From the NCBI GenBank assembly GCA_021775575.1, contig JAJFHO010000096.1, positions 1 to 39,974 of the forward strand: DNA of 39,974 bases. The letters are read 5' to 3'. The translations under genes and the position numbers were made by a program. Source of the stretch: Hyphomicrobiales bacterium. GTDB taxonomy: Bacteria > Pseudomonadota > Alphaproteobacteria > Rhizobiales > Methyloligellaceae. Shown here one piece after another: positions 2,110 through 21,331 of the stretch; positions within the stretch are counted from its first letter, which is position 1; every line of letters starts with the position of its first letter. The notes under the pieces are model-generated. The model saw only the letters and a program-made list of their open reading frames with translations. It was not told the origin of the DNA and ran no database searches.

Positions 2110-2201
2110 CTGGCCGAACGCAGCGTGCGTCCAAGCATGCAAATGCAGTGCGAGCCGGAACGAGCTCAAAGTGTAACCAGAGTGCAAAAAGGGAGGGAGC
2201 C

Positions 2202-3353
2202 ATGATGTCTAGCCTTAAAAGGTTTGCGTTGGCCGCATTGGCGCTGGGCGCCATGAATTGGTCGGCACATGCTCAAGACATGATCAATATCGGCGTAAGC
2301 CAGCCGCTCACGGGAGCCGTTGCCGCGTCGGGAAACTATGTCGTGCAAGGTGCAAAGATTGCCGAGAGCGACATCAATGCGTCGGGTGGTGTGCTCGGCA
2401 AAAAAATCAAACTGATCATTGAAGACAACAAAAGCAATCCGAAGGAAGCTGTCGCCACGGCCGAAAAGCTGATCGTCGGCGACAAAGTTCCGGTCATGAT
2501 GGGTGCCTGGAGCTCAACCTACACGCTTGCCGTTATGCCCAAACTCATGGAATACGGCGTGCCGATGGTTGTGGAAACGTCATCCTCCGGCAAGATCACA
2601 ACATCCGGCAATCCGTGGATATTCCGCATCAGCCCGACCTCGGAAATGGAGGCCAAATCGTTCGGCACCAAGGTCGGACAGTTCGGTATCAAGAAAGCTG
2701 ACTTCCTGGTCGTGAACAATGACTGGGGACGTGGCGCGTCCAAGGAATTCGTCAAGATGCTCAAATCGAAGGGCATTGCGGTGGGTGTCGTCGAAACAAT
2801 GGATGCCAAGGCAACAGACTTGAGTGCACAGATCGCAAAGGTCAAAGCATCCGGTGGCGATACGCTTTTCGTCACCTCGGGCGTCGAGCAGATTACGCTG
2901 ATTCTGAAACAGTCTAAGGAGCAACAGCTCAAGCACAAGATCATTACGACGGGCGGATCGTCCTCTCCGGATCAATTGATCGCTCAGGCGGGCGCTGCTG
3001 CGAATGGCAGCAATCATCTGCTGTTCTTCGCGCCCTGGTTCCCGGAGACTGCGCCTAATCCGGGCGTTGCGACCAAGTTCGTGAACGAATGGAAGAAGCG
3101 CGGGCATAATTTTGCCGGCCTCACCGAAGGCTTTCGCGGTTATGACGGTATTCAGACCATTGTCGCCGGCATCAAGGCCGCCGGTAAAGCCGATCCCAAG
3201 GCCATCCAGAAGGCTCTCTGGGGCGTCATGGTCAAAGGCGTGAATGGCAATATTGCGTTCATCAAGCAGGGACCGGCGGGCAAGGAAAGCGGCCAGAACG
3301 TCCCGAACGTCTATATCGTCACAATCAAGGACGGCAAGGTCTCAAAACGGTAG
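2202..3353 (+). CDS. livK: ABC transporter periplasmic binding protein, LivK type
   Basis: This is a 383-residue substrate-binding protein of the branched-chain amino-acid (HAAT) importer family. It starts with a Sec signal peptide: a basic start, the hydrophobic stretch FALAALALGA, and likely cleavage after AHA at about residue 24. The mature protein opens MINIGVSQPLTGAVAASG, the typical first strand and ligand loop, followed by LIVEDNKSNP-like and GAWSSTYTLAV segments that line the cleft. The ATG at 2202 (or 2205) follows a strong GGGAGGGAG ribosome site. It is first in a five-gene importer operon and is followed by a hairpin that may favour its expression over the membrane genes. Family members carry amino acids, amides, urea, aromatic acids or N-heterocycles. 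The ligand here is unknown but should be the inducer or substrate of the surrounding pathway. Confidence 0.93.
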   Translation: MMSSLKRFALAALALGAMNWSAHAQDMINIGVSQPLTGAVAASGNYVVQGAKIAESDINASGGVLGKKIKLIIEDNKSNPKEAVATAEKLIVGDKVPVMMGAWSSTYTLAVMPKLMEYGVPMVVETSSSGKITTSGNPWIFRISPTSEMEAKSFGTKVGQFGIKKADFLVVNNDWGRGASKEFVKMLKSKGIAVGVVETMDAKATDLSAQIAKVKASGGDTLFVTSGVEQITLILKQSKEQQLKHKIITTGGSSSPDQLIAQAGAAANGSNHLLFFAPWFPETAPNPGVATKFVNEWKKRGHNFAGLTEGFRGYDGIQTIVAGIKAAGKADPKAIQKALWGVMVKGVNGNIAFIKQGPAGKESGQNVPNVYIVTIKDGKVSKR

Positions 3354-6227: not shown

Positions 6228-6918
6228 AGGGCTCACATGCGCTTACGGCAAGGTAACGGCGGTCCGTGACCTGTCCATGGAAGTGCGCGAGGGTGAATTG
6301 GTGACGCTCATCGGAGCCAACGGCGCTGGCAAAACCTCAACGCTGAAAGCGATCTCTGGCGTATTGGCGCCTGCCGAGGGCCGGATCGAATTCGACGGCG
6401 ATGACATTACCGGTGCGTCCGCAAGAGCTGTTCTCCAAAAAGGCATCGCGCACTGCCCCGAAGGGCGGCGCATCTTCCCCTATATGACTGTGCGGGAAAA
6501 TCTGGAATTGGGTTGTTTTCTGCGCAGCGACCGCGACGGCATCTCGGAAGACATGCAGCACATTTTTGACCGTTTTCCCATCCTCCAAGAACGGTCCTCC
6601 CAGGCGGCGGGGACCTTGTCTGGCGGCGAGCAGCAAATGTTGGCCATCAGCCGCGCATTAATGTCGCGGCCGCGTCTCATCCTGTTCGATGAGCCTTCGC
6701 TCGGTCTGGCACCCAACCTGGTGGAACGCACATTCGAGATTATCGAACAAATCCGCGCCGATGGCGTTACGGTCGTAATGGTTGAGCAGAACGCGCTCGC
6801 GGCACTTGAGCTGTGTGACCATTCTTATGTTCTGGAGTCGGGAGAAGTTACGCTTTCCGGCTCGGGCAGCCAGCTTCTTAAAAACAAGAAAGTTCAGAAG
6901 GCTTATCTCGGGGGCTAG
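6214..6918 (+). CDS. livF: Branched-chain-type ABC transporter ATPase, LivF family
   Basis: This 234-residue second ATPase of the importer has Walker A GANGAGKTS at residues 34-42, HCPEGRRIFPYMTVRENLELG, the signature LSGGEQQMLAISRALM, Walker B LILFDEPSLGLAP and VMVEQNALAALE. I chose the GTG at 6214 (protein begins VLKVEGLTCAYGKV) because it starts exactly at the conserved first strand and has AAGGGA seven to eight bases upstream. It overlaps livG by 14 bases. The stop TAG lies in a CTAG that also supplies the stop of the convergent Mo-hydroxylase gene. Confidence 0.92.
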   Translation: MLKVEGLTCAYGKVTAVRDLSMEVREGELVTLIGANGAGKTSTLKAISGVLAPAEGRIEFDGDDITGASARAVLQKGIAHCPEGRRIFPYMTVRENLELGCFLRSDRDGISEDMQHIFDRFPILQERSSQAAGTLSGGEQQMLAISRALMSRPRLILFDEPSLGLAPNLVERTFEIIEQIRADGVTVVMVEQNALAALELCDHSYVLESGEVTLSGSGSQLLKNKKVQKAYLGG

Positions 6919-8144
6919 TTTTCTTTGCGGCCAAGAAGCATGCCGAACAGCGACTTGATCCGGTCCCACAGAACCTTAAAGACCAGCGAACCGGCATCGA
7001 GCGCGGCGGGCTGTGCTTCAGTCTCCCGGCCCGAGAGGCGTGCTTCAAGATTCTGCGCGAAGGCTCCCGCAAGCCGTCCGACGAGGTCGCGGACGATGGC
7101 GCCCCGGCTGAACTGTGCCAGTGGTCCGGCCAGCGAATAGGCGATGGATACGGCGATTTGCGTCGCCGCACCGCCATCGACCTCTGCAAGCTGATATTCA
7201 ACCCGCCCGCTCGCGAGAGAGGCGCTGCGCGTATCGCGCCCCTTGCCCTCAATAAGGCCGCGCCAATCATCCTCATGACGGGTGACATCGGCTTCGCCTG
7301 CAAGATCGGCGCTGATCGGGCCGATCTTCACCAGCATTCGCCCATCGACGTGACCATTCTCCGGTGGGCCGTCGAGCGTCACACCGGGCATGCAGGTGGC
7401 AACTTTTTCTATTTCACTCATGAATTTCCAGACAGAGTCGCGAGGATGGTTGACTGTGATTGTCTGGGTCAGCTTGGTGAATTTGCCGTCCTGGCTGATC
7501 TCGCCTGTCTGCACATTTACGTCAGGTTTAGCGGCGAGCGTGGGGGCTTCCGCCCGAGCCTTAGTTGTGGTCGGTCTGGCCGGCCGGGCGGTTACCGGTT
7601 CTTCTGAAGCAAGGCTGTCAGGAGCATCGGGACCTGGCGCTGGTCCAAGCGTGCGGGCGCCGGATTGCTGATCGTCCTTTTCGGTATGGTCACGCGCGAC
7701 TTTCGCGATGGCGCTTACGATGCCCATATAGCCCGTGCAGCGGCACAGATTGCCGCTCATGCCAATGCGGATCGACTGCTCATCTTTCGCTTCACCTCGG
7801 CGAATGAGATCGCGGGCCGCGACGAGCATACCTGGCGTGCAGTAGCCGCATTGCAGCGCGTGCTCTTCAGAAAAAGCCTGCCGCAGCTTCACCATCAACG
7901 GGTCGTTATCGAAATTCTCGATCGTGCGCACTTCTGTGCCATCGCACGCCACCGCGTAAGTGATGCACGACCGAGCGATCTCTCCATCGACCACCACTGT
8001 GCAGGCGCCGCATATCCCATGCTCGCAACCGACATGAGTCCCAGTGAGCAGCAACTCTTCACGCAGGAAGTCGGCCAGGTTCGTACGCGGTGTCACTTCC
8101 CGCTTCACCTTCTTGCCGTTGACTGTCAGAGCAACGCGGGTCAT
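6915..8144 (-). CDS. Molybdenum hydroxylase iron-sulfur subunit fused to a CoxG-type domain
   Basis: This 409-residue protein has two parts. Residues 1-155 are a complete CoxS-type small subunit of the xanthine dehydrogenase/CO dehydrogenase family: the plant-type [2Fe-2S] cysteines C40, C45, C48 and C60, then the second cluster cysteines C99, C102, C134 and C136 in CGYCTPGM and CRCTGY. A proline/alanine-rich linker (about 156-220) follows. Residues about 222-375 form an SRPBCC domain like CoxG (VWKFMSEIEKVATCMPG, a later GEADV, and a glycine/alanine-rich end). The tail FKVLWDRIKSLFGMLLG could anchor it to the membrane; CoxG is known to recruit CO dehydrogenase to the membrane. The subunit should pass electrons from the Mo centre to FAD, and the fused domain may dock the enzyme at the membrane. 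It overlaps the FAD-subunit gene by ATGA. CoxS and CoxG are usually separate genes. Confidence 0.9.
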   Translation of the reverse strand: MTRVALTVNGKKVKREVTPRTNLADFLREELLLTGTHVGCEHGICGACTVVVDGEIARSCITYAVACDGTEVRTIENFDNDPLMVKLRQAFSEEHALQCGYCTPGMLVAARDLIRRGEAKDEQSIRIGMSGNLCRCTGYMGIVSAIAKVARDHTEKDDQQSGARTLGPAPGPDAPDSLASEEPVTARPARPTTTKARAEAPTLAAKPDVNVQTGEISQDGKFTKLTQTITVNHPRDSVWKFMSEIEKVATCMPGVTLDGPPENGHVDGRMLVKIGPISADLAGEADVTRHEDDWRGLIEGKGRDTRSASLASGRVEYQLAEVDGGAATQIAVSIAYSLAGPLAQFSRGAIVRDLVGRLAGAFAQNLEARLSGRETEAQPAALDAGSLVFKVLWDRIKSLFGMLLGRKEN

Positions 8145-8977
8145 GGGCTCATCGCTTCTTGCAAGGCGCGGCTCATGGCGACGGCGCGGATGCGCAGCTC
8201 ATATTCATCCGGCTCCATGCCTGCTTCACGCAGAGCGTCCATGGCCATGTCCATGTCGAAGCTACCGGCATCAAGCGGATCGCCATTTTTGAACAGCGGC
8301 TTCGGGTCGTCGAACAGGACGGGCTGTTCCGACCCTCCAGCCGCGACCATGCGAAAAAAGCCTGTATCTGTGTCGGTTGTGACCGCACCAATCGCCTCTG
8401 CAAATTCGCCGGTCTTTCGGCAGATTTTGTGAAAGCCGTGCCGGGCAACCCTGCTGCCCCTCGGCACGTGGATCGCCGTGACCAGTTCCACCGCACCGAG
8501 ATCCGTCTCCATCGCGCCCTTCACGAAGCCATGGAGCGCGGCCCGCCGCATGCCTCCTGCGTGGGCAATTTCAAGCTCACCGCCAAGCACTAAGAGCGCG
8601 CTCAGCCAGTCGGCAGCGGGGTCGGCATGGGAAAGGCTTCCGCCGATGGTGCCGCGTGTACGCACGGCCCGATAGGCGATGCCAGAGGCGACGCGGCGCA
8701 GAAAACCGTTCGCCGGATCACGGACGCGGCCATCCTCAATCGCCGCGTGGGTCACACAGGCGCCAATTGCATATATATCGTCATTCTCATTCACCTCGAC
8801 CAGTTCCGCGATGCGGGTGATATCGATAAGAAGCTCAGGTTGCACCAATCGTAAATTGAGCATGGGGCCAAGGGTCTGACCGCCGGCAAGTATCTTGGCG
8901 GCAGGGTTCGCATCGAGCAGCTCAAGCACTTGGGCGATGCCACGCGGGCGCGCATAGTCGAAGGCTACCGGTTTCAT
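8141..8977 (-). CDS. Molybdenum hydroxylase FAD-binding subunit (CoxM-like)
   Basis: This 278-residue medium subunit of the xanthine dehydrogenase family shows the FAD-binding AGGQTLGP motif at about residues 31-38 and the second flavin motif RTRGTIGGSLSHADPAAD near 110-127. The C-terminal CODH-FAD domain follows, and the length is standard. It would carry electrons from the [2Fe-2S] clusters to a quinone or another acceptor. It overlaps both neighbours by four bases (ATGA at 8974-8977 and at 8141-8144), so the three subunits are co-translated in the order large, medium, small. Confidence 0.92.
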   Translation of the reverse strand: MKPVAFDYARPRGIAQVLELLDANPAAKILAGGQTLGPMLNLRLVQPELLIDITRIAELVEVNENDDIYAIGACVTHAAIEDGRVRDPANGFLRRVASGIAYRAVRTRGTIGGSLSHADPAADWLSALLVLGGELEIAHAGGMRRAALHGFVKGAMETDLGAVELVTAIHVPRGSRVARHGFHKICRKTGEFAEAIGAVTTDTDTGFFRMVAAGGSEQPVLFDDPKPLFKNGDPLDAGSFDMDMAMDALREAGMEPDEYELRIRAVAMSRALQEAMSP

Positions 8978-11322
8978 GCTGCGGTTTCCTTCTCGGAGCG
9001 CGCGGCAACAATAGCCTCGACAATCCGTCGAGGCGTTACAGGCGACATGGTGAGTTCCGCCCCCATAGGCTTAAGCGCGTCGTTGATGGCATTGGTGATC
9101 GCCGCGGGAGGCGCGATGGCGCCGCCTTCGCCAATTCCCTTCACGCCGAAGCGGGTATAGGGCGACGGCGTTTCCATGTGGAACACGCGTATCGAGGGTA
9201 TCTCGGCGGGCCCGGGAAGCAGATAGTCGGACAGGGTGGAGGCAAGCGGCTGCGCGTCGGCGTCGAAGCGCATCTCCTCATAAAGTGCGGTGCCTACGCC
9301 TTGCGCGGCGCCGCCGAAAATCTGACCATCGACGATCATAGGGTTTACCAGCACACCGCCATCCTCAACGATCACATAGTCGAGAATTTCCACTTCGCCG
9401 GTGAGCGTGTCCACGGCGAGGAGTGCTGCATGGGCCGCGTAGCTGAAGGTGCCCGAGTCGCGCTCTGGCTTGTAACCCGCTGTCACCTCGAGGCCTGAAG
9501 GGTTGACGTCGGGTGGCAAATCCTGCGGGCGCCGGTACCAGATATAAGCGATCTCTTCGATGGTGAGCTCGCCGGATGGACCAATCGCTCTATTATCTTT
9601 CAGCGTGATGTCCGTGGGCTTGCATTGCAGCATTTTGGCCGCGATGCCACGGGCGCGCTCCGCGAGCTGATCGCAGGCTTCCGCCACCGCACCGCCCGAC
9701 ATGACCATGCAGCGTGACCCCCAGGTGCCGGTCGAATAGGGCGTGAAAGCCGTGTCGCCATGCACCACCTTGATCTTGTCGTGAGCGATGCCGAGAACTT
9801 CGTTGGCGACCTGTGACAAGGTCGTCTCGAGCCCCTGTCCGTGCGAGTGAGCGCCAATTCGAATTTCGAGACCGCCGTCAGGGGTGAGCCGCGCATTTGC
9901 CTGCTCATGACCAGGTACCATCGGTATGCCCCAGCCGGCATAGACCGAAGTACCGTGGGCCGCCTGCTCGCAATACATGGCGAAGCCAACACCGATCACA
10001 CGGCCATCGCTCTCGCCTTTCTTCTGGCGCTGGCGGACCGCCGTCAGATCTATAGCCTCGACAGTGCGGCGCAATGCTTCGGGATAGTCGCCGGAGTCGA
10101 AATGCTTGTTGGTGATATTGTCGAATGGCATTTGCTCAGGGCGCACCAAATTCTTCATGCGCACATCGGTTGGTTCCATATCGAGTTCCCGCGCGACTGC
10201 GTCGATCATGAGCTCCATTGCGAAGCAGACACCGGTCCGGGCGACCCCCCGATAGGGCAATATCGGCGCCTTGTTGGTGGCGGCGGAAAAGGTATGGCAG
10301 CGATAGTGCGGAAAGTCGTAGACGCCAGGCAGAATGCTCGCAACCTGCGCCGCCTCCAGACAGGCGGAGAAGGGGTAGGCGGAATAGGCGCCGGAGTCGA
10401 CGGTGGCCTCCGCGTCAATACCAAGCAGCTTGCCTTCCTTGTCCGCGTAGGCCGTGACCACATAGTGATGTTCACGGCAGTTGGCTGAGGCGGTGAGATT
10501 TTCCCGCCGGTCTTCGAGCCAGCGCACCAGATGCCCCAGATGCATCGCCGCCCAGGCGAGGCATACTTCCTCTGGCAGAAGGATGCCCTTGTAGCCGAAG
10601 CCACCTCCGACATCGGGCGCAATGACACGGATAGCGCCATGGTCGATGCCAAGACATTCCGAAAGTCCCGACCGCACGATGTGCGGCATTTGCGTGGAGC
10701 TGTGAACGGTGAGTTGTTCAAGACGGCCGTCCCAATGGGCGATAGCGCCGCGTCCCTCGATCGGGCTCATGCATTGTCGCGCGGTCGAGAACGCGCGCGT
10801 CACCTTGACCGCGGCTTCGCCCGCAGCCGCCTTCATGTCGTCGTCAACCAGCGTCTCGAGAAAGATATTGTCGCCCCAGTGATCATGCACCAGGGCGCTA
10901 TCTTTCTCGCGCGCCATTAGCATGTCGTGTACGGCCGGAAGCGCGTCGAAATCGATCTCGACGCGCGCCGCCATATCTTCCGCTTCCGCTCTGTCGGGTG
11001 CGATGCAGATGGCGACAAGCTCCCCGACATGTCGGACCTTGCCGCGCGCCAGGACCGGCTGGTCCGATGGCTTGAAACCGGGCAGGGCCGTAACCGCCGT
11101 GATCGGCTTCACCTCGTCCAAATCCGCAGCGGTAAAAACGCATCCGGCCAGATCGTCAGGCACCTTTATGGATTTGATGCGCGCGTGGGCAAGGGGGCTG
11201 CGCACGAAAGCCGCGTCCTGCATGCCGGCGAGGCGGATGTCGCCGACAAACTCGCCGCGGCCCCGCATATAGCGATCATCTTCCTTGCGGATGAGACGCG
11301 CACCAACACCCTGCTTTTTCAT
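8974..11322 (-). CDS. Molybdenum hydroxylase catalytic (Mo-cofactor) subunit, xanthine dehydrogenase family
   Basis: This 782-residue large subunit begins GARLIRKEDDRYMRGRGEFVGDI, typical of CoxL-like proteins. The active-site loop reads PYRGVART (Y357, R358), so it lacks the cysteine of the AYRCSFR loop of true CO dehydrogenase. The catalytic base is E732 in GIGEGG. It should therefore hydroxylate a carbon next to nitrogen in a heterocycle, or an aldehyde, rather than oxidise CO. The substrate cannot be read from sequence. I chose the ATG at 11322; a GTG at 11358 would add 12 basic residues. Operator B is centred 67 bases upstream. The subunit heads a three-gene operon with the FAD and Fe-S subunits. 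No Mo-cofactor insertion gene (CoxD or XdhC type) is present nearby. Confidence 0.9.
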   Translation of the reverse strand: MKKQGVGARLIRKEDDRYMRGRGEFVGDIRLAGMQDAAFVRSPLAHARIKSIKVPDDLAGCVFTAADLDEVKPITAVTALPGFKPSDQPVLARGKVRHVGELVAICIAPDRAEAEDMAARVEIDFDALPAVHDMLMAREKDSALVHDHWGDNIFLETLVDDDMKAAAGEAAVKVTRAFSTARQCMSPIEGRGAIAHWDGRLEQLTVHSSTQMPHIVRSGLSECLGIDHGAIRVIAPDVGGGFGYKGILLPEEVCLAWAAMHLGHLVRWLEDRRENLTASANCREHHYVVTAYADKEGKLLGIDAEATVDSGAYSAYPFSACLEAAQVASILPGVYDFPHYRCHTFSAATNKAPILPYRGVARTGVCFAMELMIDAVARELDMEPTDVRMKNLVRPEQMPFDNITNKHFDSGDYPEALRRTVEAIDLTAVRQRQKKGESDGRVIGVGFAMYCEQAAHGTSVYAGWGIPMVPGHEQANARLTPDGGLEIRIGAHSHGQGLETTLSQVANEVLGIAHDKIKVVHGDTAFTPYSTGTWGSRCMVMSGGAVAEACDQLAERARGIAAKMLQCKPTDITLKDNRAIGPSGELTIEEIAYIWYRRPQDLPPDVNPSGLEVTAGYKPERDSGTFSYAAHAALLAVDTLTGEVEILDYVIVEDGGVLVNPMIVDGQIFGGAAQGVGTALYEEMRFDADAQPLASTLSDYLLPGPAEIPSIRVFHMETPSPYTRFGVKGIGEGGAIAPPAAITNAINDALKPMGAELTMSPVTPRRIVEAIVAARSEKETAA

Positions 11323-11379
11323 GATCCGCACCCGTCCCTTGCGGTTCCTCCAGCGCACCTTCCCGGATTTCGGTCAGGT

Positions 11380-11474: not shown

Positions 11475-12230
11475 TTATGATGTGCGGTTGATCAGCTCGA
11501 TATCCAGCTTTACCTGATCACCACGATAGATGATGTCGCCAGAGTAAATCACGACGCCATCGACGTCGGTGATGATGCAATGGGCCTCGGCGGTCGGTGC
11601 ATTCAACGGGATCTTGAGCTGAAGCGCCGTTTCCACATCCGCTGCGCCGATGCGCAGTGTCTGGTGTGCGCGGCTGATCTCGAGATCGTCCATTTCGTCG
11701 ATTACGGCGAGCGCGACACGCTTGCGAAAGGCCGCTGGGTCGCGGTCGTAAATATGTTTGGCCAGGTGAACGCTGGCCAGAGCATATGGCTCGTTCCTTT
11801 TAAGCTGTACGCTGCGGAAAAACTCGTAGGCATCCGCCGGCCGCCCGTCCTTTGGATCGATCTGCAGCTCCTGTGCTGTATCGACGTCAATGAAGCGCGG
11901 TACATTCGCGCTTATGAGATTGATAAGGGAGTCCCAGTCGGTTGCCAGATGCAGCCACCGGTCGTTGCCGGGCGTGCGCATCACAAAAGTGCCTTTGCCC
12001 TGATGGGACCTGAGAAGGCCCTCTTCCTGCAACAGTTCGATCGCCTGGCGCACGGTGACGCGCGCAACGCTGAACTCGTTCTCGAGCTCCTCCAGCGTGG
12101 CGATCTTGTCGCCGACGGCCCAATGCCCTTCCCGGATACGCCGGCGCAGCGTGGAGGCAACCTGCACGTAACGCGGAGCGCGTATCTCCGCGTATGTGCT
12201 TGCGATGCCTGTCTGACCAGCGTTTGTCAT
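11475..12230 (-). CDS. GntR-family transcriptional regulator, HutC subfamily
   Basis: This 251-residue protein has an N-terminal winged helix-turn-helix at about residues 19-86 (VASTLRRRIREGHWAVGDKI, then FSVARVTVRQAIELLQEEGLL and GKGTFV). A UTRA effector-binding domain follows from about residue 100 to the end (AYEFFRSVQLKRNEPYALASVHLA; VIYSGDIIYRGDQVKLDIEL). HutC-type regulators are usually repressors released by a pathway metabolite. The ATG at 12230 has AGGAGAAG upstream. It lies 145 bases after the M20 gene on the same strand, so it is probably transcribed from the operator-C promoter and regulates itself. It is the natural candidate to bind the five shared palindromes, whose GT...AC ends fit GntR-family operators. 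This link is inferred. Confidence 0.93.
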   Translation of the reverse strand: MTNAGQTGIASTYAEIRAPRYVQVASTLRRRIREGHWAVGDKIATLEELENEFSVARVTVRQAIELLQEEGLLRSHQGKGTFVMRTPGNDRWLHLATDWDSLINLISANVPRFIDVDTAQELQIDPKDGRPADAYEFFRSVQLKRNEPYALASVHLAKHIYDRDPAAFRKRVALAVIDEMDDLEISRAHQTLRIGAADVETALQLKIPLNAPTAEAHCIITDVDGVVIYSGDIIYRGDQVKLDIELINRTS

Positions 12231-12375: not shown

Positions 12376-13656
12376 CTATTTCACACCACACCAATCGCAA
12401 ATGCTCAGCGCATAGACCTTGATGGCGGTCATATAGTCATCGATATCCACATATTCATCATTGGCGTGCATCACAGCGGTTGGGCCGGGGCCAAAAATCA
12501 CGGTAGGCGTATCGCCGTTGTTTATGAGGAACCGGGTATCGGCAGCCCCCTGGCGGCCACTGATTTCCGGATCCTTGCCTGCGACCTCCTTGAAACACTC
12601 CACAAGGGTTGTGACGATAGGATGATCGGTTGGAATATCGGCGGCCTCTGCATCGAGACCACCAAACTTGTTGCCAAAGGTGATCTCCGGGGGATGATCC
12701 TTCATCCAGGGGTCGTCAGCCGCAGCTTTTGCAATGTGATCAACGAACGCTTGCTTGACACCATTGTGGTCTTCGCCCGGAACCGTGGCGATGCTGCCCT
12801 TCAGCAAACAAGTGTCGGGAAAAGCGCTCGGAAAGCTGCCGGACTCGATGGTGCCGACGAGGCAGGGCAGCGTGCTGAGGATATCGGGATAAAGCGGATG
12901 CGAGACCGTCTCGAGGCGGTGTTTTTCATGGTCGTCGATTGCCACCTTGATTTTATAGCCAAGATCGATGGCATTCACGCCCGTATAGCGCTGCTGAATA
13001 CCCGCCTTCTTGCCGCGGATGAGGATTTGGAACCAGATGCGCCCGATACAGGCGGGCTGTACGGCGAGCGTGCTGGTCTCGCCTGAAATGGCGGCATCGG
13101 CCTTGTAGCCGCGCAGTACGGTGTCGAGTGTTCCGTGTCCGGAGATTTCCTCGTCCACGACAAGATTTACGAGAACGTCACCTTTGAGTTTGATCCCGGC
13201 TTCTTCGATATATTGGACCGCAAGAATCTGCGACGACACTCCGCTCTTCATGTCGGAAGACCCCCGGCCATAAATGCGATTATCCCGGATTTTCGCCGCC
13301 CATGGATCGTCGGTCCAGGATTCACGCGGACCTTCAGGAATGACATCGGTATGGCCGTTCAGCAGCAGCGAGCGCCCGCCGCCCGCACCCTTGCGGGTGG
13401 CAACGATGTTTGGACGCCCTTCATAGCTTTCGGTGACGACGGAGGCAGCAGGATGTTTCTGGATTTCTTCCGCATCCATATCCCACATGTCGATCTCGAG
13501 CCCCATTTCTTCGAGATAGCCCTTCAGGTGGTTCTGGATCGGGCCCTCATCCCCCGTCACGCTCGGAAACTGTATGAGTTTGCGGAGGAAATCGACGGCC
13601 TGATCCTGCTTGCCATCGATCATTTCAAGCAACTTTTGCCGCTGAGCCTTGTCCAT
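12376..13656 (-). CDS. M20-family metallo-amidohydrolase, ArgE/DapE type
   Basis: This 426-residue zinc-dependent deacylase/carboxypeptidase-like enzyme has the metal ligands and catalytic residues of the family: H102 and D104 in GHTDV, D135 in GRGSSDMKSG, the E169-E170 pair in DEEISG and H397 in MHANDEY. A dimerisation (lid) domain lies between about 195 and 310. Members cleave amide bonds of N-acyl or N-carbamoyl amino acids and short peptides. The regulon context suggests it opens an amide or ureido bond of the substrate or of a ring-opened intermediate; the actual substrate is unknown. It is followed on the same strand by the GntR gene. Operator C is centred only 23 bases before the ATG, so the start codon lies very close to the regulated promoter. 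No strong ribosome site is seen. Confidence 0.88.
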   Translation of the reverse strand: MDKAQRQKLLEMIDGKQDQAVDFLRKLIQFPSVTGDEGPIQNHLKGYLEEMGLEIDMWDMDAEEIQKHPAASVVTESYEGRPNIVATRKGAGGGRSLLLNGHTDVIPEGPRESWTDDPWAAKIRDNRIYGRGSSDMKSGVSSQILAVQYIEEAGIKLKGDVLVNLVVDEEISGHGTLDTVLRGYKADAAISGETSTLAVQPACIGRIWFQILIRGKKAGIQQRYTGVNAIDLGYKIKVAIDDHEKHRLETVSHPLYPDILSTLPCLVGTIESGSFPSAFPDTCLLKGSIATVPGEDHNGVKQAFVDHIAKAAADDPWMKDHPPEITFGNKFGGLDAEAADIPTDHPIVTTLVECFKEVAGKDPEISGRQGAADTRFLINNGDTPTVIFGPGPTAVMHANDEYVDIDDYMTAIKVYALSICDWCGVK

Positions 13657-13989: not shown

Positions 13990-14658
13990 ATGAGTGAAAT
14001 CCGCTCATCGCTTGCCGTGATCGGTGGAACCGGAAATCTTGGGCATGCGCTGGCGCGCCGCTGGGCGCAGGCCGGATATGAGGTTGTGATAGGCTCGCGC
14101 ACTGCGGGGAAGGCGGAGGACGCTGCCGCGCGTATTGAAACGGCCAGCGGATCGGTGCCCGCGACCGGATTGACAAATGAGGATGCGGCGGCCAAGGCCG
14201 ATATTGTCATTGTTGCCGTTCCTTTCTCGTCCCAAGAGGCAATTCTCACCGCCATTTCGGGTGAATTGGCAGGCAAGCTGATTGTCGACACCACCGTGCC
14301 CCTCGTACCGCCAAAAGTCGCGCGCGCGCAAATGCCCACGGCAGGCTCCGCGGCACTGTCGGCGCGAGCCATCCTCGGCGAGGAAGCCAGACTTGTTTCG
14401 GCATTTCACAATGTCGCCGCGCACAAGCTGCAACAAGATATCGAGGTCGATTGCGATGTGCTGGTGTTTGGCGATAATCCGGCCGACCGGGACAGTGTCG
14501 TGGAACTTGCGGACGCGGCCGGGCTGCGCGGCATTCACGGTGGCCCTCTTGCCAATTCCGTTGCCGCCGAAGCGTTCACTTCGGTCCTCATCGGCATCAA
14601 CAAACGCTACAAGGCCGATGGCGCCGGCATTCGCATCACCGGACTTGGCGGCGCCTAG
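13990..14658 (+). CDS. npdG: NADPH-dependent F420 reductase (F420:NADP+ oxidoreductase)
   Basis: This 222-residue Rossmann-fold protein is of the archaeal Fno/NpdG family. It has the nucleotide loop VIGGTGNLGHALARRWA (GGTGNLG at 12-18), followed by VVIGSR, whose Ser-Arg end fits NADP binding. IVIVAVPFSSQE, LIVDTTVPLVPP, LVSAFHNVAAHKLQ and LVFGDN follow in family order. It should reduce F420 with NADPH in the cytoplasm to supply F420H2. AGGGGA lies five bases before the ATG. It heads a tightly packed cofactor operon with cofE 30 bases downstream. Having the reductase in front of the biosynthetic genes indicates that reduced F420 is what the pathway needs. Confidence 0.9.
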   Translation: MSEIRSSLAVIGGTGNLGHALARRWAQAGYEVVIGSRTAGKAEDAAARIETASGSVPATGLTNEDAAAKADIVIVAVPFSSQEAILTAISGELAGKLIVDTTVPLVPPKVARAQMPTAGSAALSARAILGEEARLVSAFHNVAAHKLQQDIEVDCDVLVFGDNPADRDSVVELADAAGLRGIHGGPLANSVAAEAFTSVLIGINKRYKADGAGIRITGLGGA

Positions 14659-14688: not shown

Positions 14689-15453
14689 ATGGCGAACAGA
14701 CTTACAGTCATTGGTATCGAAGGCGTCCCCCTTGTCCAGGCGGGAGACGATCTAGCTGCAATATTGATTTCGGCAATCGAAGCGCAGGGCCTGCAGCCAT
14801 CTAAAGATGATATTCTTGTCGTGGCACAGAAGGTCGTCTCAAAGGCGGAACGACGGCTACTCGACCTTTCGACACTTGAGCCTTCGCCAGAGGCCCAAAA
14901 GCTCGCGCAAGAGACAGATAAGGACCCCCGTCATGTGGAAGCTATCTTGCGCGAGTCGAACGACGTGGTGCGCAGCAAGCCGGGCGTGATCGTGGTCGAG
15001 CACCGTCTCGGCCATGTGCTCGCCAATGCCGGCATCGACCGCTCCAATGTCGAAAGTCCGGGTGGAGGCGACGCCGTGCTTCTGCTGCCGGAGGACCCGG
15101 ATGCAAGCGCGGCACAGATCAAGGATCGTTTCGACGCCCGCTGGAATTGCGATGTGGGCGTCATTATCGCAGACAGCGTCGGGCGCGCCTGGCGGCTTGG
15201 GACAACTGGAATAGCGATCGGTGTCGCGGGCCTTGCGGCGCTCAATGACCAGCGTGGTGATCTCGATCTTTTTGGCAAGCCGCTGGAAGTGACTGTGACC
15301 GGCCATGCGGACGCCATTGCTGCGGCGGCGACGCTCATCATGGGCGAGGGCGCGGAAGCAGTGCCGGCGGCGCTCGTGCATGGCGTACAGCGCGGCGATG
15401 CCACACCTGCGCGCAGTATTGTCAGGCCGAAAGACGAGGACATGTTCCGATGA
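14689..15453 (+). CDS. cofE: Coenzyme F420-0:L-glutamate ligase
   Basis: This 254-residue GTP-dependent ligase adds glutamates to F420-0. Visible family motifs are DDILVVAQKVVSKAE near residues 39-53, VVRSKPGVIVVEHRLG, NAGIDRSN, and DSVGRAWRLGTTGIAIG near residues 162-178. Only the CofE domain is present; the C-terminal flavin-dependent reductase domain of mycobacterial FbiB is missing, and no separate copy of that reductase is seen in the window. The stop overlaps the cofD start (ATGA at 15450-15453). Confidence 0.94.
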   Translation: MANRLTVIGIEGVPLVQAGDDLAAILISAIEAQGLQPSKDDILVVAQKVVSKAERRLLDLSTLEPSPEAQKLAQETDKDPRHVEAILRESNDVVRSKPGVIVVEHRLGHVLANAGIDRSNVESPGGGDAVLLLPEDPDASAAQIKDRFDARWNCDVGVIIADSVGRAWRLGTTGIAIGVAGLAALNDQRGDLDLFGKPLEVTVTGHADAIAAAATLIMGEGAEAVPAALVHGVQRGDATPARSIVRPKDEDMFR

Positions 15454-16448
15454 CCGGACGCCAGGAATTGCCGAAAGGCAAACCGCATGGCGACGTTGTC
15501 GCGCTTTGCGGCGGCGTTGGCGGCGCAAAGCTCGCACTCGGCCTTTCCCGGGTCGTGCCCGGGGATCAGTTATCGATAGGCGTCAACACGGGCGACGACT
15601 TCAAACATCTCGGCCTGCATATCTCTCCGGACATCGATACGGTGATGTATACGCTGGCCGGTCTAGCGAACCCCGAAACGGGCTGGGGGCGGGTGGACGA
15701 AACCTGGAATTTCATGGAGACGCTGAGCTCCCTTGGTGGGGAGACCTGGTTCCAATTGGGTGACCGGGATATGGCGCTCCACGTTGAGCGCACCTGCCGG
15801 CTGCGGGCGGGCGAAACGCTAAGCGCCATCACCGCCGATATTTGCAGCCGCCTGGGTATTGCATCGCGTGTCCTGCCCATGAGCGATGACCCGGTGCGCA
15901 CGCTGGTCGAGACTGAGACGGGCCCGATGCCCTTCCAGAACTATTTCGTCGAGCAGCGGTGCAAACCAGCCGTTCGGTCGGTAACGTTTGCCGGTGCGGA
16001 GCGAGCAACGACCCAGAGGGAGTTGGCGGCGGCGCTGCTGAAACCCAATCTTCGGGCGGTCGTCATCTGCCCGTCCAATCCCTATCTCAGTGTCGATCCC
16101 ATCCTCGCTGTCGCAGGCATGCGTGAGCTTCTGCATAAGGTCTGCGCACCTGTCGTCGCCGTTTCGCCGGTCGTCGGCGGCAAGGCAGTGAAGGGTCCCA
16201 TGGCCAAGATCATGGGCGAGCTGGGGCACAAGGTCAGCCATGCCACAATCGCAAATCACTATGCCGGCTTGATAGAGGGCCTGATGGTTGATTGCGAGGA
16301 AGAGGGTATCCCCGGCAATATTTCGGTCGCGGTCCAAAGCACGATGATGAAAACTCTGGACGACAAGATCGAACTTGCCCGGGCGGCGCTCTCCTTTGCC
16401 GACGATATCACGGCGGGGCGAGGCACCTTGCAGGAGCAGCGCGCATGA
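15450..16448 (+). CDS. cofD: CofD/FbiA-type phospho-(lacto/enolpyruvyl) transferase of F420 synthesis
   Basis: This 332-residue enzyme joins the CofC-activated three-carbon phosphate to the deazaflavin Fo. The glycine-rich CGGVGGAKLALGLS lies at residues 17-30, followed by VNTGDDFKHLGLHISPDIDTVMYTLAG, FQLGDRDMALH, VICPSNPYLSVDPIL and a late AVSPVVGGKAVKGP. The length is standard. It overlaps cofE and the CofC-CofG-CofH gene by ATGA at both ends, so the biosynthetic enzymes are translationally coupled. Confidence 0.95.
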   Translation: MTGRQELPKGKPHGDVVALCGGVGGAKLALGLSRVVPGDQLSIGVNTGDDFKHLGLHISPDIDTVMYTLAGLANPETGWGRVDETWNFMETLSSLGGETWFQLGDRDMALHVERTCRLRAGETLSAITADICSRLGIASRVLPMSDDPVRTLVETETGPMPFQNYFVEQRCKPAVRSVTFAGAERATTQRELAAALLKPNLRAVVICPSNPYLSVDPILAVAGMRELLHKVCAPVVAVSPVVGGKAVKGPMAKIMGELGHKVSHATIANHYAGLIEGLMVDCEEEGIPGNISVAVQSTMMKTLDDKIELARAALSFADDITAGRGTLQEQRA

Positions 16449-19400
16449 GCGGAATATTCGCCGTCGTACCGATGAAGCCTCTGGCGCTCGCCAAGCAGCG
16501 CCTTGCCGCCTGCCTGCCTGACACCCAGCGCCAGGCCCTCGTGCGCGCCATGCTGGGTGATGTGCTTACAGCGCTTGCGCGCTCGGGCCACGTGGAAAAA
16601 ACTTTTGTTGTGACGGCGGACCCTGAAATTTTTCGCTTTGCCGCCCGGTTTGGCGCGACGCCGATTGCCGAAGAGACGCCGAAGGGATTGAATTGCGCCA
16701 TCGCGGAAGCGGCCCGGTATGTGTGGACTCTTAGTGCGCAAGCTCTGCTCATTCTGCCGGGCGACGTGCCTCTCGTTACGGCTGCCGAAATTGATGAAAT
16801 GGCTTCGCAGGCGCGCCCGCAACGCATAGTCATCGCTCCCGCTCATGATGGCGACGGCACCAATGCGCTACTGCTTTCGCCGCCCGATGCGATAGCCCCC
16901 TCATTCGGTTCCGGTAGCTTTGCCCGTCATCTCGCGGCGGCACGCGAAGCTGACGTGGATGCGGCGACATGCAGACTCGCCGGGCTAGGGCGCGATGTCG
17001 ACGACGCTCACGACCTCGCATGGCTTGGGCGGCAGAGGGCGGCGCGCGCGGAATATGACTTCCTCCGCGACATTGATCAAAGCAAGGAAATTGCCCTGCC
17101 CGCAACACTGCAGTCAGCCATAGACAGCGCGGCATCGGGCAAACGCCTTTCGCGTGAAAAGGCCCTTACGCTTGCCGCATGCGATGACCTTGGCGAACTT
17201 TGTCTCACGGCAGAGGAGCTGACGCGCGCGGGGCATGGCGAGCGGGTGAGTTATTCGAAGAAAGTCTTCATTCCCCTCACAAAGCTCTGCCGGGACGTGT
17301 GCCACTATTGCACCTTTGCGCAGAGTCCCCGCAATGCCGGTGAGGCCTATCTGTCGCTCGACCAAGTGCGCGGTATTGCCGAGGCCGGACACAAGGCCGG
17401 GTGCAAGGAGGCGTTGTTCACCCTCGGCGACAAACCGGAATTGCGATACGCCGCCGCGCGCGAGGCGCTGGATTGGCTCGGACATGACAGCACGCTTTCC
17501 TATCTGGAAGAGGCTGCGAAGGCTGTTCTGGATGAGACCGGGTTGCTTCCCCATCTCAATCCGGGCGTGATGGACAAGGCGTGGCTTGAGCGGCTTCGCG
17601 CCGTCTCGGTCTCGCAGGGCATCATGCTCGAGACCGCCTCGGCGCGGCTGATGGAGCGCGGCATGCCCCATCACGGCTCGCCGGACAAGGCGCCGGAGGT
17701 AAGGTTGGCGACCCTTCAAGCGGCAGGCGAGGCGGCGGTGCCCTTCACCACCGGGCTCCTGATTGGTATCGGCGAGACGCGCGCAGAGCGCATCGAGGCC
17801 CTGCTCGCCATCCGCGAGCAGCATGAGCGTTACGGCCATATCCAGGAAATCATCATCCAGAACTTCCGCGCCAAGTCCGGCACACGCATGGCCGACGCGC
17901 CCGAGCCGCCGCTTGAGGAGCATATCTGGACCATCGCGGCGGCTCGGCTTATTTTCGGACCTGAAATGAACATCCAGGCGCCGCCAAATCTGCGCCCTGG
18001 CGCGCTGGCGCAACTCATCCGCGCCGGCATCAACGATTGGGGTGGCGTGTCTCCGGTCACGCCCGACCATGTGAACCCGGAGGCGCCTTGGCCGCATCTC
18101 GACCGGTTGGCCGAGGCCACTGCGCGCGCCGGGCGCGAGCTGGTTGAACGACTTGCGCTCTATCCTGAATATGCGTGCACTGCCGAACAATGGACGTCGA
18201 GCGCGCTGCGCCCGGCCCTGATGCGCCAGAGCGACACGGAAGGCTATACGCGCGAAGACGGCTGGCTCGCGGGTGCCGACACGCCTCCACCGTCCGAACG
18301 GAAAGAGACGCTGCGTCTCAACACGCTTTGCCGGGAGACTGCGCGCGCGCTGGATGCTGTGGTGGCGGGACGTGTGGACGAGCGCTCGCTGGAACAGCTA
18401 TTTGCGGCGCGCGGTGATGCCTTCGATAAGGTTGTGTACGCCGCCGATGCGCTGCGCCGGGAACGCAATGGCAATACCGTCACCTATGTGGTCAACCGCA
18501 ACATCAACTACACGAATCTGTGCACCTATGGTTGCCGCTTCTGCGCCTTTTCCAAGGGGCGTTTGTCGCTCGGCATGCGCGACCGTCCCTATGATCTGCC
18601 GCTTGAGGAGATTGCCGCCCGTGCGGCCGAGGTGTGGGCAAAAGGCGGTACGGAAGTATGCCTGCAGGGCGGCATCGGCCCGCGCTATACGGGCGACACC
18701 TATCTCGCCATTGTGAAGGCGGTGAAAACCGCCGCGCCGGACATCCACGTCCATGCCTTCTCGCCGCTTGAGGTATGGCATGGGTCCCAGACGCTTGGGC
18801 TTTCGCTGCGGGACTATCTCGCGCGGCTGCGTGACGCCGGGCTCGCAAGCCTTCCCGGCACCGCGGCGGAAATCCTCGACGATGAAGTGCGCTCCATTCT
18901 GTGTCCTGACAAAATAAATACGGCCCAGTGGCTTGAGGTCATGGAGGCTGCCCACGCGGTCGGGCTGCGCTCGACCGCGACAATCATGTTTGGTCATGTG
19001 GAGGGCGCCCGGCACTGGGCGCGCCACCTGCTGCGCGTGCGCGCTTTGCAGGAGCGAACCGGCGGTTTCACTGAATTCGTGCCGCTTCCCTTTGTGCATA
19101 TGGAAGCGCCAATCTATTTGAAGGGCGGTGCGCGGCGCGGGCCAACATGGCGCGAAGCGGTGCTGATGCATGCCGTCGCGCGCCTTGCGCTCGACCCGGT
19201 TATCACCAACATACAGGCATCCTGGGTGAAAATGGGACCAGAAGGCGCCGGGCGGTGCCTTTCAGCTGGCGTCAACGATTTCGGCGGCTCGCTGATGAAT
19301 GAGTCGATCACGCGCGCGGCTGGAGCTGTTCACGGCCAGGAAATGACGCCGGCGCGAATGGAGACGATGATCCGCGCCGCTGGCCGGATGCCGCAGCAAC

Positions 19401-19495
19401 GCACCACGCTTTACGGTAGCATTTCCGCCATGAACTACGAGATCGTGCCGCCCGATGTTTTGCCCATTTCCCCACGCCTGGTGGCGGCTGAATGA
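16445..19495 (+). CDS. Trifunctional F420 biosynthesis protein: CofC guanylyltransferase fused to CofG and CofH (Fo synthase)
   Basis: One 1016-residue protein carries three enzymes in line. Residues 1-205 are CofC/FbiD: VVPMKPLALAKQRLA at the nucleotide site, LLILPGDVPLV, DGDGTNALLLSP, FGSGSFARHLAAAR and DVDDAHDL. This part activates a three-carbon phosphate with GTP. Residues about 215-560 are the radical-SAM enzyme CofG, with cluster cysteines C282, C286 and C289 in LCRDVCHYCTFAQ. Residues about 610-1016 are the radical-SAM enzyme CofH, with C693, C697 and C700 in LCTYGCRFCAFSKG. Together CofG and CofH make the Fo deazaflavin from tyrosine and a flavin precursor. The CofG-CofH order is that of actinobacterial FbiC; the extra CofC front is the unusual part. 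I chose the ATG at 16445 because it overlaps the cofD stop and starts exactly at the CofC first strand. No stop or frame change occurs between the domains. Confidence 0.95.
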   Translation: MSGIFAVVPMKPLALAKQRLAACLPDTQRQALVRAMLGDVLTALARSGHVEKTFVVTADPEIFRFAARFGATPIAEETPKGLNCAIAEAARYVWTLSAQALLILPGDVPLVTAAEIDEMASQARPQRIVIAPAHDGDGTNALLLSPPDAIAPSFGSGSFARHLAAAREADVDAATCRLAGLGRDVDDAHDLAWLGRQRAARAEYDFLRDIDQSKEIALPATLQSAIDSAASGKRLSREKALTLAACDDLGELCLTAEELTRAGHGERVSYSKKVFIPLTKLCRDVCHYCTFAQSPRNAGEAYLSLDQVRGIAEAGHKAGCKEALFTLGDKPELRYAAAREALDWLGHDSTLSYLEEAAKAVLDETGLLPHLNPGVMDKAWLERLRAVSVSQGIMLETASARLMERGMPHHGSPDKAPEVRLATLQAAGEAAVPFTTGLLIGIGETRAERIEALLAIREQHERYGHIQEIIIQNFRAKSGTRMADAPEPPLEEHIWTIAAARLIFGPEMNIQAPPNLRPGALAQLIRAGINDWGGVSPVTPDHVNPEAPWPHLDRLAEATARAGRELVERLALYPEYACTAEQWTSSALRPALMRQSDTEGYTREDGWLAGADTPPPSERKETLRLNTLCRETARALDAVVAGRVDERSLEQLFAARGDAFDKVVYAADALRRERNGNTVTYVVNRNINYTNLCTYGCRFCAFSKGRLSLGMRDRPYDLPLEEIAARAAEVWAKGGTEVCLQGGIGPRYTGDTYLAIVKAVKTAAPDIHVHAFSPLEVWHGSQTLGLSLRDYLARLRDAGLASLPGTAAEILDDEVRSILCPDKINTAQWLEVMEAAHAVGLRSTATIMFGHVEGARHWARHLLRVRALQERTGGFTEFVPLPFVHMEAPIYLKGGARRGPTWREAVLMHAVARLALDPVITNIQASWVKMGPEGAGRCLSAGVNDFGGSLMNESITRAAGAVHGQEMTPARMETMIRAAGRMPQQRTTLYGSISAMNYEIVPPDVLPISPRLVAAE

Positions 19496-19567: not shown

Positions 19568-20521
19568 CTAAAGCACCCGTAACTTGGGCAGTATATCCTG
19601 GGCAATCAGGTCAACCTGATCGTCCTGATAGCGGTAGGGAACAAAAATGATGCGGTCGACTCCGGTATCGAGATGCGCCTTGAGCTGCTCAACGCATTCG
19701 TCCGGCGTGCCGATGATGGCACTATCCGTCGTCGACTTGCTCCAACTCGCAAAATCCCATTCGGTGTTGAGCCACTCCATCATGTCGGCTTCGACTTTGG
19801 ATCGCTCGCCGACGATGATCGGCAGCTGATTTGTCGAGATCAATGTGTCGGGGTCCTTGCCGCCTTCCACGGCAAAATTGCGGACCTTTGCCCAGTCCTC
19901 GGAAAAGCCTTCCGGCGTATAGAAATAGGTGAGCCAGCCGTCACCCCCGAGCGCCGCGCGCTTCAAAACCGCGTCAACATAGCCACCGATGAGAATGGGC
20001 GGGCGCGGCTTCTGGTACGGTTTCGGGAACATGACCGAATTGCTCATCTCGTGCGGAGGATAGCTGCCCGACACCATGTCCTCGGTCCATAGCCGGTTCA
20101 GAATTTCCAGGTTCTGGTCCATGATCTTGCCGCGCTTGTGAAAGTCGATGCCGACCGCATCGAATTCGCGCTTGTACCAGCCCGACGCCATGCCCAGCAC
20201 CAACCGGCCTTTGGATATCAAGTCCATGCTGGAAAGCTGTTTGGCCAGCACCAGCGGGTTACGCAATGGCAGGACGAGAATGCCGGTTCCGAGCTTGATC
20301 TTGCTGGTGCGCGCGGCGACCGCCGTCAGCAGCGACAAGGCGTCGATGATCGGGAAATGAGGATCAACGCCGAGCAGGATATGATCCCAGACCCAAACCG
20401 ACTCAAAGCCGAGCTCCTCCACACGCACGCCATACTCAATCAACTTCTGCGCGTCAGGCAGATCCGGAAATGCCTGGAAATTGCGCATCGCAATGCCGTA
20501 CTGGGTTTCATGCTTTGCCAT
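19568..20521 (-). CDS. LLM-class F420-dependent oxidoreductase (luciferase-like fold)
   Basis: This 317-residue enzyme of the luciferase-like superfamily has the TIM-barrel segments YGVRVEELGFESVWVWDHIL, TSKIKLGTGILVLPLRNPLVLAKQLSSMD, RLVLGMASGWYKREFDAVG and a late TPDECVEQLKAHLDTGVDRIIFVPY. The family splits into FMN- and F420-using members. The IKLGTGI(L)VLP and GxGWxxxEF patterns, and its position in a cluster with a complete F420 pathway, favour F420. It would reduce or oxidise the pathway intermediate by hydride transfer. It is the only clear F420-consuming enzyme in the window apart from the F420 reductase. AGGAAG lies six bases before the ATG. It is last in the operon PLP enzyme, CoA-transferase A, CoA-transferase B, LLM. 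Confidence 0.88.
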   Translation of the reverse strand: MAKHETQYGIAMRNFQAFPDLPDAQKLIEYGVRVEELGFESVWVWDHILLGVDPHFPIIDALSLLTAVAARTSKIKLGTGILVLPLRNPLVLAKQLSSMDLISKGRLVLGMASGWYKREFDAVGIDFHKRGKIMDQNLEILNRLWTEDMVSGSYPPHEMSNSVMFPKPYQKPRPPILIGGYVDAVLKRAALGGDGWLTYFYTPEGFSEDWAKVRNFAVEGGKDPDTLISTNQLPIIVGERSKVEADMMEWLNTEWDFASWSKSTTDSAIIGTPDECVEQLKAHLDTGVDRIIFVPYRYQDDQVDLIAQDILPKLRVL

Positions 20522-20560: not shown

Positions 20561-21331
20561 TCACGCCGTGTAAAGCCTGTCGGGATCGACATCACGCAAT
20601 ACGGCGAGCTCGTTTTCTTGCGGCGGTTCGGTGCGTGCCACATGGTCGGGAATCGCTATATCGAAGCCGGTATTGTCTTTCACCTCTTCCGCCTCAACGC
20701 CGGGGTGAAGCGCGATGACCTGCATCTCCTTCGTCTCGGCGTCGAAGCCAAGGATCGCCAGGTCCGTGACCACACGGTACATGCCGCCGGCAATGAGCCC
20801 GCTGTCGGCGCGGCTCGTTCCACCCTTGATGAAGCCGGGGCTGGTGATGAAATCGACCGCATCGACGAAGCGGCGCTTCTCATGCTTCATCGCGACGATC
20901 ATCTGGGTCAGACTCGAAATATCGTTGCCGCCGCCGGTGCCGGGCAGGCGGATGGCCGGCTTTTCGGGGTTGCCGATAAACGAACTGTTGAGATTGCCGT
21001 AGCGATCGATCTGAGCCCCGCCCATGAAGCCGACGTCCACATAGCCGCGCTGCAGCAGCAGCAGCACGTCGGTGATCGGCAGCACCATATTGGCGCGCCG
21101 GGTGCAGCGCTGTTCGTTGGTCGATGGCGGCAGTTCGCCCGGCACAACAAAGGGTCCGACGACCCCGCCTTCGAACAGGATAGTCAGGCCGGGCGCATGG
21201 ACACGCTGCGCCAGGGTCGCGGCAAGCAGCGGTATGCCCACGCCCGCAAATACGATCTGGCCGTCCTCGAGAATGCGTCCGCTCATTACTGCGAGCAGTT
21301 CGGATGCCGTATAATTTTTCCGTTCAGTCAT
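20561..21331 (-). CDS. CoA-transferase subunit B (glutaconate CoA-transferase GctB family)
   Basis: This 256-residue beta subunit of a family-I CoA-transferase has GQIVFAGVGIPLLAATLAQRVH near the start, and E54 in LFEGGVVGP at the position of the catalytic glutamate that forms the CoA thioester in GctB. LPITDVLLLLQRGYVDVGFMGGAQIDRYGNLNSSFIG, LPGTGGGNDI and VVTDLAILGFD follow as expected. It should move CoA from a donor such as acetyl- or succinyl-CoA to a carboxylic acid intermediate. The ATG at 21331 has GGAG eight bases upstream and overlaps the end of the A-subunit gene by eight bases. Confidence 0.92.
   Translation of the reverse strand: MTERKNYTASELLAVMSGRILEDGQIVFAGVGIPLLAATLAQRVHAPGLTILFEGGVVGPFVVPGELPPSTNEQRCTRRANMVLPITDVLLLLQRGYVDVGFMGGAQIDRYGNLNSSFIGNPEKPAIRLPGTGGGNDISSLTQMIVAMKHEKRRFVDAVDFITSPGFIKGGTSRADSGLIAGGMYRVVTDLAILGFDAETKEMQVIALHPGVEAEEVKDNTGFDIAIPDHVARTEPPQENELAVLRDVDPDRLYTA

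Follow-up and report, generated by a model that had tools for sequence, protein, structure and literature searches.

The closest described relatives of the locus analysed here are molybdenum hydroxylases of the xanthine oxidase family, in which electrons pass from Mo through two [2Fe-2S] clusters to the FAD subunit. The Mo-Cu CO dehydrogenases (CODH, form I) carry a cysteine in the active-site loop. In HpdA, the 3-hydroxypyridine dehydrogenase of Ensifer adhaerens HP1, the SRPBCC part was reportedly found by Wang et al. in 2020 to be a separate subunit, unlike that of other SRPBCC-containing molybdohydroxylases. According to passages from one study, particulate enzyme was absent from a coxG mutant of O. 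carboxidovorans, which grew more slowly on CO, the generation time lengthening from 21 to 149 h (PMC4240915). An excerpt from another article describes CoxG as a menaquinone-binding protein through which Mo-CODH electrons are delivered (PMC13240472, citing Kropp et al. 2025). Parts of a third source state that an archaeal dehydrogenase is brought to the membrane by CoxG-like proteins, that S. acidocaldarius G3PDH reduces quinones without CoxG, which relocates the enzyme to the membrane, and that a CoxG homologue was proposed as membrane anchor for HpdA (PMC11962113). For picolinate degradation, a section of a further paper gives the gene order of B. bronchiseptica RB50 as picA adjoining picB and picC-G-E-D-F (PMC10142695). 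Among the matches listed in a literature search that covered few subscription papers, no publication describing a CoxS–CoxG fusion was found.

The window, that is, the whole 39,974-nucleotide stretch of DNA that was analysed (contig JAJFHO010000096.1 of a Hyphomicrobiales bacterium), contains such a fusion as the last gene of an L-M-SG set:

6915..8144, minus strand: CoxS–CoxG fusion subunit, 409 aa (assigned by Pfam, structure model and alignment)
8141..8977, minus strand: FAD subunit, CoxM-like, with FAD_binding_5; 4-base overlap with the fusion gene
8974..11358, minus strand: molybdopterin subunit, CoxL-like, with PYRGVART (residue 368) and KGIGEGG (residue 740); nearest solved sequence, the quinoline 2-oxidoreductase large subunit

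The FAD-subunit and large-subunit genes also overlap by 4 bases. Positions 6915 to 8144 form one minus-strand open frame with no internal stop. The strand was corrected with respect to an earlier note on this DNA: the plus strand in the same frame contains a stop and is a different sequence. The protein consists of [2Fe-2S] CoxS domains (residues 1–152), a linker (≈ 153–221), a CoxG/SRPBCC domain (≈ 222–372) and a C-terminal helix (385–404). Pfam matches above gathering were Fer2 (7–60), Fer2_2 (74–146) and COXG (229–370), the last with a whole-protein E of 3e-12 and 46.8 bits against a gathering value of 22.2. The CoxG part had one match among solved sequences, M. smegmatis CoxG (8uds_D, E 8e-21).

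An AlphaFold2 model of the fusion protein, built from 59 sequences (the window's and 58 from related loci), had a mean pLDDT of 81 and a pTM of 0.52. The CoxS and CoxG domains were mostly above pLDDT 70, with many blocks above 90; linker residues 165–168 and 170–205 were below 50, and the tail helix (385–404) was predicted with moderate confidence (55–73). The low pTM would fit two domains on a flexible tether. In structure alignments, residues 223–372 matched M. smegmatis CoxG (8uds) with Z 20.5 and an rmsd of 1.5 over 146 aligned residues at 32% identity; the title of that entry reads 'CoxG from M. smegmatis, minus lipid anchoring C-terminus'. The SRPBCC rows that followed were 2pcs (Z 17.3) and 2ns9 ('Pfam COXG', Z 16.0), and the N-terminal part aligned with the CoxS-type subunits 5y6q_A (Z 20.7) and 1ffu_A (Z 20.1). 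The single frame, the Pfam matches and the 8uds alignment bear out the earlier proposal that a CoxS subunit is joined to a CoxG-like SRPBCC domain.

The Pro/Ala linker of that proposal was found as well and is disordered in the model: its length ranges from 41 to 78 aa over the 80 sequences examined (those of 79 loci plus the window's), with 23% Ala and 11% Pro, and residues 165–205 of the window's protein were nearly all below pLDDT 50. The hydrophobic tail that had been noted on the CoxG-like domain is present and is conserved in letters and in charge. Among the 79 sequences with letters there, tail positions 387–389, 391–393, 396, 399 and 400 are hydrophobic in 81–100%, position 395 is basic in 94% and position 397 in 85%. 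The last 25 residues have a net charge of at least +2 at 76 of 78 loci (excluding the window and locus L033, where the contig ends). Tails of the same type occur in both branches of the family defined below, clades A and B. Amphipathicity of the tail was not significant, whether calculated as a column-averaged moment (p 0.19) or per sequence (mean z 0.46; z > 1 in 13 of 80).

To survey the distribution of the fusion, a profile of the G-domain alignment was scanned against a genome collection with one genome per species (84,980 species). The scan gave 285 relatives, and our counts cover the best 80 of these, some of which are near-identical strains. The domain-architecture search that had been suggested as a check placed CoxS and CoxG domains in one open frame at 79 of these 80 loci, the exception (L032) being cut by a contig end. 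Hosts included Aminobacter, Labrys, Bradyrhizobium, Methylobacterium, Caballeronia, Cupriavidus, Variovorax and Pseudomonas fluorescens. At least 80% of the query was found in one place in 31 of 1282 matching records of a plasmid collection; 13 records of a phage collection matched partially and none covered 80% of the query. A frame or assembly error joining two genes was considered and rejected: the domains are fused at 79 of the best 80 loci in separate assemblies, and again in the second collection, of plasmids, which makes an artefact of this kind extremely improbable. The CoxS–CoxG fusion is confirmed as genuine. It is not peculiar to the window's genome and marks a subfamily in Alpha-, Beta- and Gammaproteobacteria.

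In a phylum sample of 397 genomes, 13 (the window's own included) had a G-domain match with E ≤ 1.5e-22, all in frames of at least 406 aa; weaker matches (from 6e-13) lay mostly in frames of 150–300 aa, with some in longer ones. One genome has a distant second CoxG domain in an 848-aa open frame (G076:C1:2574198-2574647), possibly another CoxG fusion, and the window's genome has a separate CoxG on another contig (C7). We built a tree from 63 fused G domains (three of them copies of the window's, and some pairs identical across collections) and 24 standalone domains. On this tree a single change accounts for the fused form, which would allow a single origin at a branch support of only 73. The standalone domains nearest the fused branch (L012, L013) adjoin separate M, S and L genes, as labelled from sequence starts and the tree. 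In the fused G domains, 28 positions reach a conservation of at least 85%; 16 of these are common to the 24 standalone CoxG rows and 12 are rare there (≤ 20%), so the fused domain may have shifted in function. The 12 fused-specific positions may mean contacts with the enzyme, or ubiquinone replacing menaquinone.

The window's three subunits make up the three-part set of the xanthine oxidase family, with two-[2Fe-2S], FAD_binding_5 and MoCoBD subunits, all above Pfam gathering. They share CoxL/M/S/G homology with the aerobic Mo-Cu CODH of O. carboxidovorans and M. smegmatis, which differ from the window's enzyme in having the loop cysteine and a separate CoxG. In the alignment, this loop reads YRCSFR in CutL and YACSFR in M. 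smegmatis CoxL. Of 84 loci, 78 had a large subunit within the DNA fetched (74 from the scan and 4 from plasmids); the active-site loop was PYRGVART in 70, PYRGVARP in three, AYRGVART in two, PYRGVARC and PYRGVARS in one each, and unreadable in one; [PA]YRGVAR was thus found at 77 of 77 readable loci, one with a C directly after it. The glutamate of KGxxE was present at all 76 readable loci (2 of the 78 were unreadable), and we take this large-subunit KGxGE glutamate to be the catalytic residue of the xanthine oxidase family. Among solved sequences, the large subunit of quinoline 2-oxidoreductase (Qor, P. putida 86, 1t3q) was nearest (E 7e-146), ahead of M. smegmatis CoxL (2e-129), and it shares the YRGV loop; the Qor small subunit (168 aa) matches only residues 2–149 of the window's protein. 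For the two NCBIfam CODH large-subunit models, the scores were 479.2 of the required 991.15 bits and 555 of 950 bits, and all NCBIfam models listed for the three subunits, those of CO, xanthine, glyceraldehyde and 4-hydroxybenzoyl-CoA enzymes among them, were below cut-off. The cysteine-free loop together with the missed cut-offs rules out a CO dehydrogenase, as had been argued from PYRGVART at residue 368. A CoxG homologue is proposed for HpdA and for the window's enzyme alike; the SRPBCC part is reportedly a separate subunit in HpdA, whereas it is fused in the window. No large subunit was found in the fetched DNA at 6 of the 84 loci; L032, L033 and L102 are cut near a contig end, and L039, L046 and L058 have M and SG genes.

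The family was divided by large-subunit identity at a line of 64% into clade A (34 loci, the window's branch) and clade B (44 loci). The tree broadly matches this line; L055 and L056, which the line assigns to B, fall inside A, and L051 lies outside both. The window's large subunit is 68–86% identical to those of its own branch and 53–56% identical to most of the pic-type branch. Neighbours at the 44 clade-B loci are relatives of a Rieske oxygenase (26 loci), NicX (20), NicD (19), NicE (17) and PicC (19). These names were assigned from sequence features and are presumptive; Pfam supports the fold classes except for NicX, which has no Pfam match. None of the 34 clade-A loci has relatives of these five, and at E 1e-5 no relatives of pic-type neighbour genes were found in the window. 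Its enzyme does not, then, have the location in a pic cluster that would mark picolinate dehydrogenase.

The sole clade-B locus checked in full (L070) reads reductase, Rieske oxygenase, L, M and SG, followed by Amidohydro_2 (picC), Amdase (picG), an a/b hydrolase (picE), a gene with no Pfam match (picD position) and an isochorismatase (picF). This fits the published pic order. The fusion protein of that branch is therefore very probably a subunit of picolinate dehydrogenase, and the fused architecture very probably belongs to a named enzyme, PicA (picA1A2A3). As read from pic-type loci such as L070, the putative PicA branch resembles the window in its L-M-SG order, fused CoxS–CoxG and PYRGVAR loop; it differs in its pic-type neighbours, in place of which the window has F420 genes. 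At six of the 44 clade-B loci (L068, L077, L084, L094, L095, L106) the fusion lies beside hydantoinase A/B and a dihydroorotate-dehydrogenase-like gene, which suggests a cyclic amide or pyrimidine-like substrate for this group.

The genes flanking the enzyme in the window are as follows (clade-A counts here and below are lower bounds, with loci extending at most ≈ 10 kb per side):

2148..3353, plus strand: LivK-like binding protein of a branched-chain-type ABC transporter; relatives at 21 of 34 clade-A loci
11475..12230, minus strand: GntR/UTRA-type regulator; conserved neighbour, 21 of 34 clade-A loci
12376..13656, minus strand: ArgE/DapE family M20 deacylase, TIGR01910 above cut-off; conserved neighbour, relatives at 15 of 34 clade-A loci
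13990..14658, plus strand: NpdG, NADPH-dependent F420 reductase, above curated cut-off
14689..15453, plus strand: CofE, F420-0 gamma-glutamyl ligase, TIGR01916 above curated cut-off
15450..16448, plus strand: CofD, 2-phospho-L-lactate transferase, above curated cut-off
16292..19495, plus strand: CofC-CofG-CofH in one frame, F420 biosynthesis; start probably the ATG at ORF residue 52
19568..20521, minus strand: F420-dependent LLM class oxidoreductase, TIGR03619 above curated cut-off
20561..21364, minus strand: CoA-transferase B-like subunit, named after its annotated counterpart in S. meliloti, where the gene order is the same (NCBIfam gave no match at E 1e-20)
21324..22544, minus strand: CoA-transferase A-like subunit, Pfam CoA_trans at 111–331; the listed ORF begins upstream of the domain
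22330..23895, minus strand: pyridoxal-phosphate dependent enzyme (PALP); relatives at 6 of 34 clade-A loci

The genes that follow LivK up to 6918 are presumably a permease and an ATPase, judging from the annotation of relatives. CofC, CofG and CofH of the window were each above the curated cut-off. CofC is fused here to CofG–CofH (FbiC), with three F420 biosynthesis activities on one polypeptide; in 13 comparable loci, CofC and FbiC share one frame in five (L027–L031, where the fetched DNA ends within the frame) and are separate in eight.

Among the 34 clade-A loci, F420-side neighbours were NpdG at at least 15, CofE and CofD at at least 14 each, the LLM enzyme at at least 11 and FbiC at at least 8; CoxG-fusion neighbours further included CoA-transferase B and PxpA (at least 11 each) and PxpC (at least 8). 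An F420 biosynthesis gene or LLM gene of any kind was present at at least 24 of 34 clade-A loci versus 0 of 44 in clade B. Seven of the ten clade-A loci without F420 or LLM genes (Methylobacterium, Bradyrhizobium, a Geminicoccaceae plasmid) have an amidohydrolase and an a/b hydrolase in their place; neither of these is present at L037, L040 or L053, the last of which has an NpdG match under a laxer rule. In 61 related genomes, nine had the full-length fusion, ten had NpdG above cut-off and eight had both (Fisher p 1.3e-7, uncorrected for relatedness); in seven of these eight, the two genes lie 5.8–11 kb apart on one contig. In S. meliloti R28, pSymA groups L-M-SG with F420 genes, CoA-transferase, an LLM enzyme, an ArgE-like deacylase, transhydrogenase genes, Liv genes and a pyrC-annotated amidohydrolase. 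At L035, from Pusillimonas caeni KCTC 42353, npdG, cofE and cofD were likewise observed. Identity of this group with the trigonelline (trc) region, which we take to lie by nifAB/nodD3, was not supported: positions 20000–79179 of the R28 record hold kdp genes, with neither nif nor nod among the genes listed. The idea that F420 goes with the fused family in general was rejected. CofE was above cut-off in 6 of the 397 phylum-sample genomes and, among the 13 fused ones, only in the window's own; another fused genome (G232) has an interrupted CofE match below cut-off.

Elsewhere in the window, 30134–34725 (minus strand) encodes a methylmalonyl-CoA-mutase-type large subunit, a MeaB GTPase, an AMP-binding CoA-ligase-like protein and a B12-binding small subunit, a layout that we take to be that of an acyl-CoA mutase such as 2-hydroxyisobutyryl-CoA mutase. 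At 35995–37824 (minus strand), one protein combines a c-type cytochrome domain with a cytochrome d1 heme domain, and DUF1989 and DUF1847 proteins are encoded near the catabolic cluster at 23941–24687 and 28122–29009 (both plus strand).

We propose that the fusion protein is the small subunit of an L-M-SG hydroxylase that acts as a tethered quinone shuttle and passes electrons into the respiratory chain, and we put the probability of this reading at about 0.6. The enzyme would hydroxylate an N-heteroaromatic catabolic substrate, probably imported by the adjacent Liv-type transporter. On its flexible tether, the CoxG domain would rest against the membrane via the basic/hydrophobic C-terminal helix, bind ubiquinone in its helix-grip cavity and present it to the enzyme, so that reducing power would enter the respiratory chain directly instead of as NADH; the fusion would provide one shuttle per heterotrimer. 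Substrate class, membrane binding, quinone binding and electron route are what we infer, and the CoxG domain and its tail are most economically explained by membrane docking with delivery to the respiratory chain. In the window's genome, UbiA was above cut-off and menA (TIGR00751) had no match, a search covering the menA route only.

The earlier note had cast CoxG as a membrane-docking domain. Its anchoring part would agree with our reading; CoxG is, however, reported to bind quinone (PMC13240472), and a tethered quinone shuttle therefore fits better than docking as the sole role. The domain might nonetheless be a membrane anchor only, concentrating the enzyme near a membrane acceptor with no quinone chemistry. 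The conserved basic/hydrophobic tail is in keeping with this, and the S. acidocaldarius enzyme, which in the excerpted account reduces quinones without its CoxG (PMC11962113), makes anchoring alone possible. Against it stand the description of CoxG as a menaquinone-binding protein that delivers Mo-CODH electrons (PMC13240472, in part) and the conservation of the entire helix-grip domain, beyond that of the tail and linker (mean majority frequency 0.60, 0.46 and 0.32, respectively). Weighing the CoxG literature, the 16 shared and 12 specific positions of the 28, UbiA without menA and the tail data, we favour a shuttle and regard an anchor alone as rather unlikely. Still less likely is a role unrelated to the membrane, in which the SRPBCC domain would hold a hydrophobic substrate, product or assembly intermediate and electrons would go to a soluble acceptor. 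Helix-grip folds bind many ligands, other such rows reached Z 12–15, and the 12 family-specific positions could reflect a ligand of this kind; however, CoxG was the best SRPBCC match by 3 Z units, and a like tail is found in clades A and B.

For the window's branch, the tethered shuttle may be the entry to an aerobic, F420-dependent reductive pathway for N-heteroaromatics, running from Mo hydroxylase to LLM enzyme, hydrolase and CoA-transferase; we offer this tentatively, as somewhat less probable than its failure. The membrane-tethered Mo hydroxylase would form a lactam, its electrons going to ubiquinone. The LLM oxidoreductase would then use F420H2 to reduce the ring. NpdG would supply this F420H2, perhaps through a PntAB transhydrogenase as well in S. 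meliloti and some others. Amide or lactam hydrolases would open the ring, the window's candidate being the ArgE-like deacylase and those of some relatives PxpA/PxpC or a pyrC-like amidohydrolase, and the CoA-transferase would hand the product on. The window has the ArgE-like deacylase and no PxpA, PxpC or amidohydrolase relatives, which weakens the proposal. Among the matches listed in a literature search on F420 with Mo hydroxylases, none concerned this cluster.

The fused architecture is common to a known kind of enzyme, and the window's branch differs from it by the F420 neighbourhood. As a natural one-to-one pairing of enzyme and shuttle, the fusion makes the question of CoxG as anchor or quinone carrier testable by deleting one domain. 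An amide hydrolase, a CoA-transferase, an LLM enzyme and complete F420 biosynthesis beside the hydroxylase suggest a role for F420 in Proteobacteria. A 2021 review of F420 counts the retention of F420 in many Alphaproteobacteria as unanswered (PMC8498797). With F420 biosynthesis, an F420-type oxidoreductase and a Mo hydroxylase travelling together, this standing question becomes testable, and the proposed pathway, if true, would explain why many Alphaproteobacteria have kept F420.
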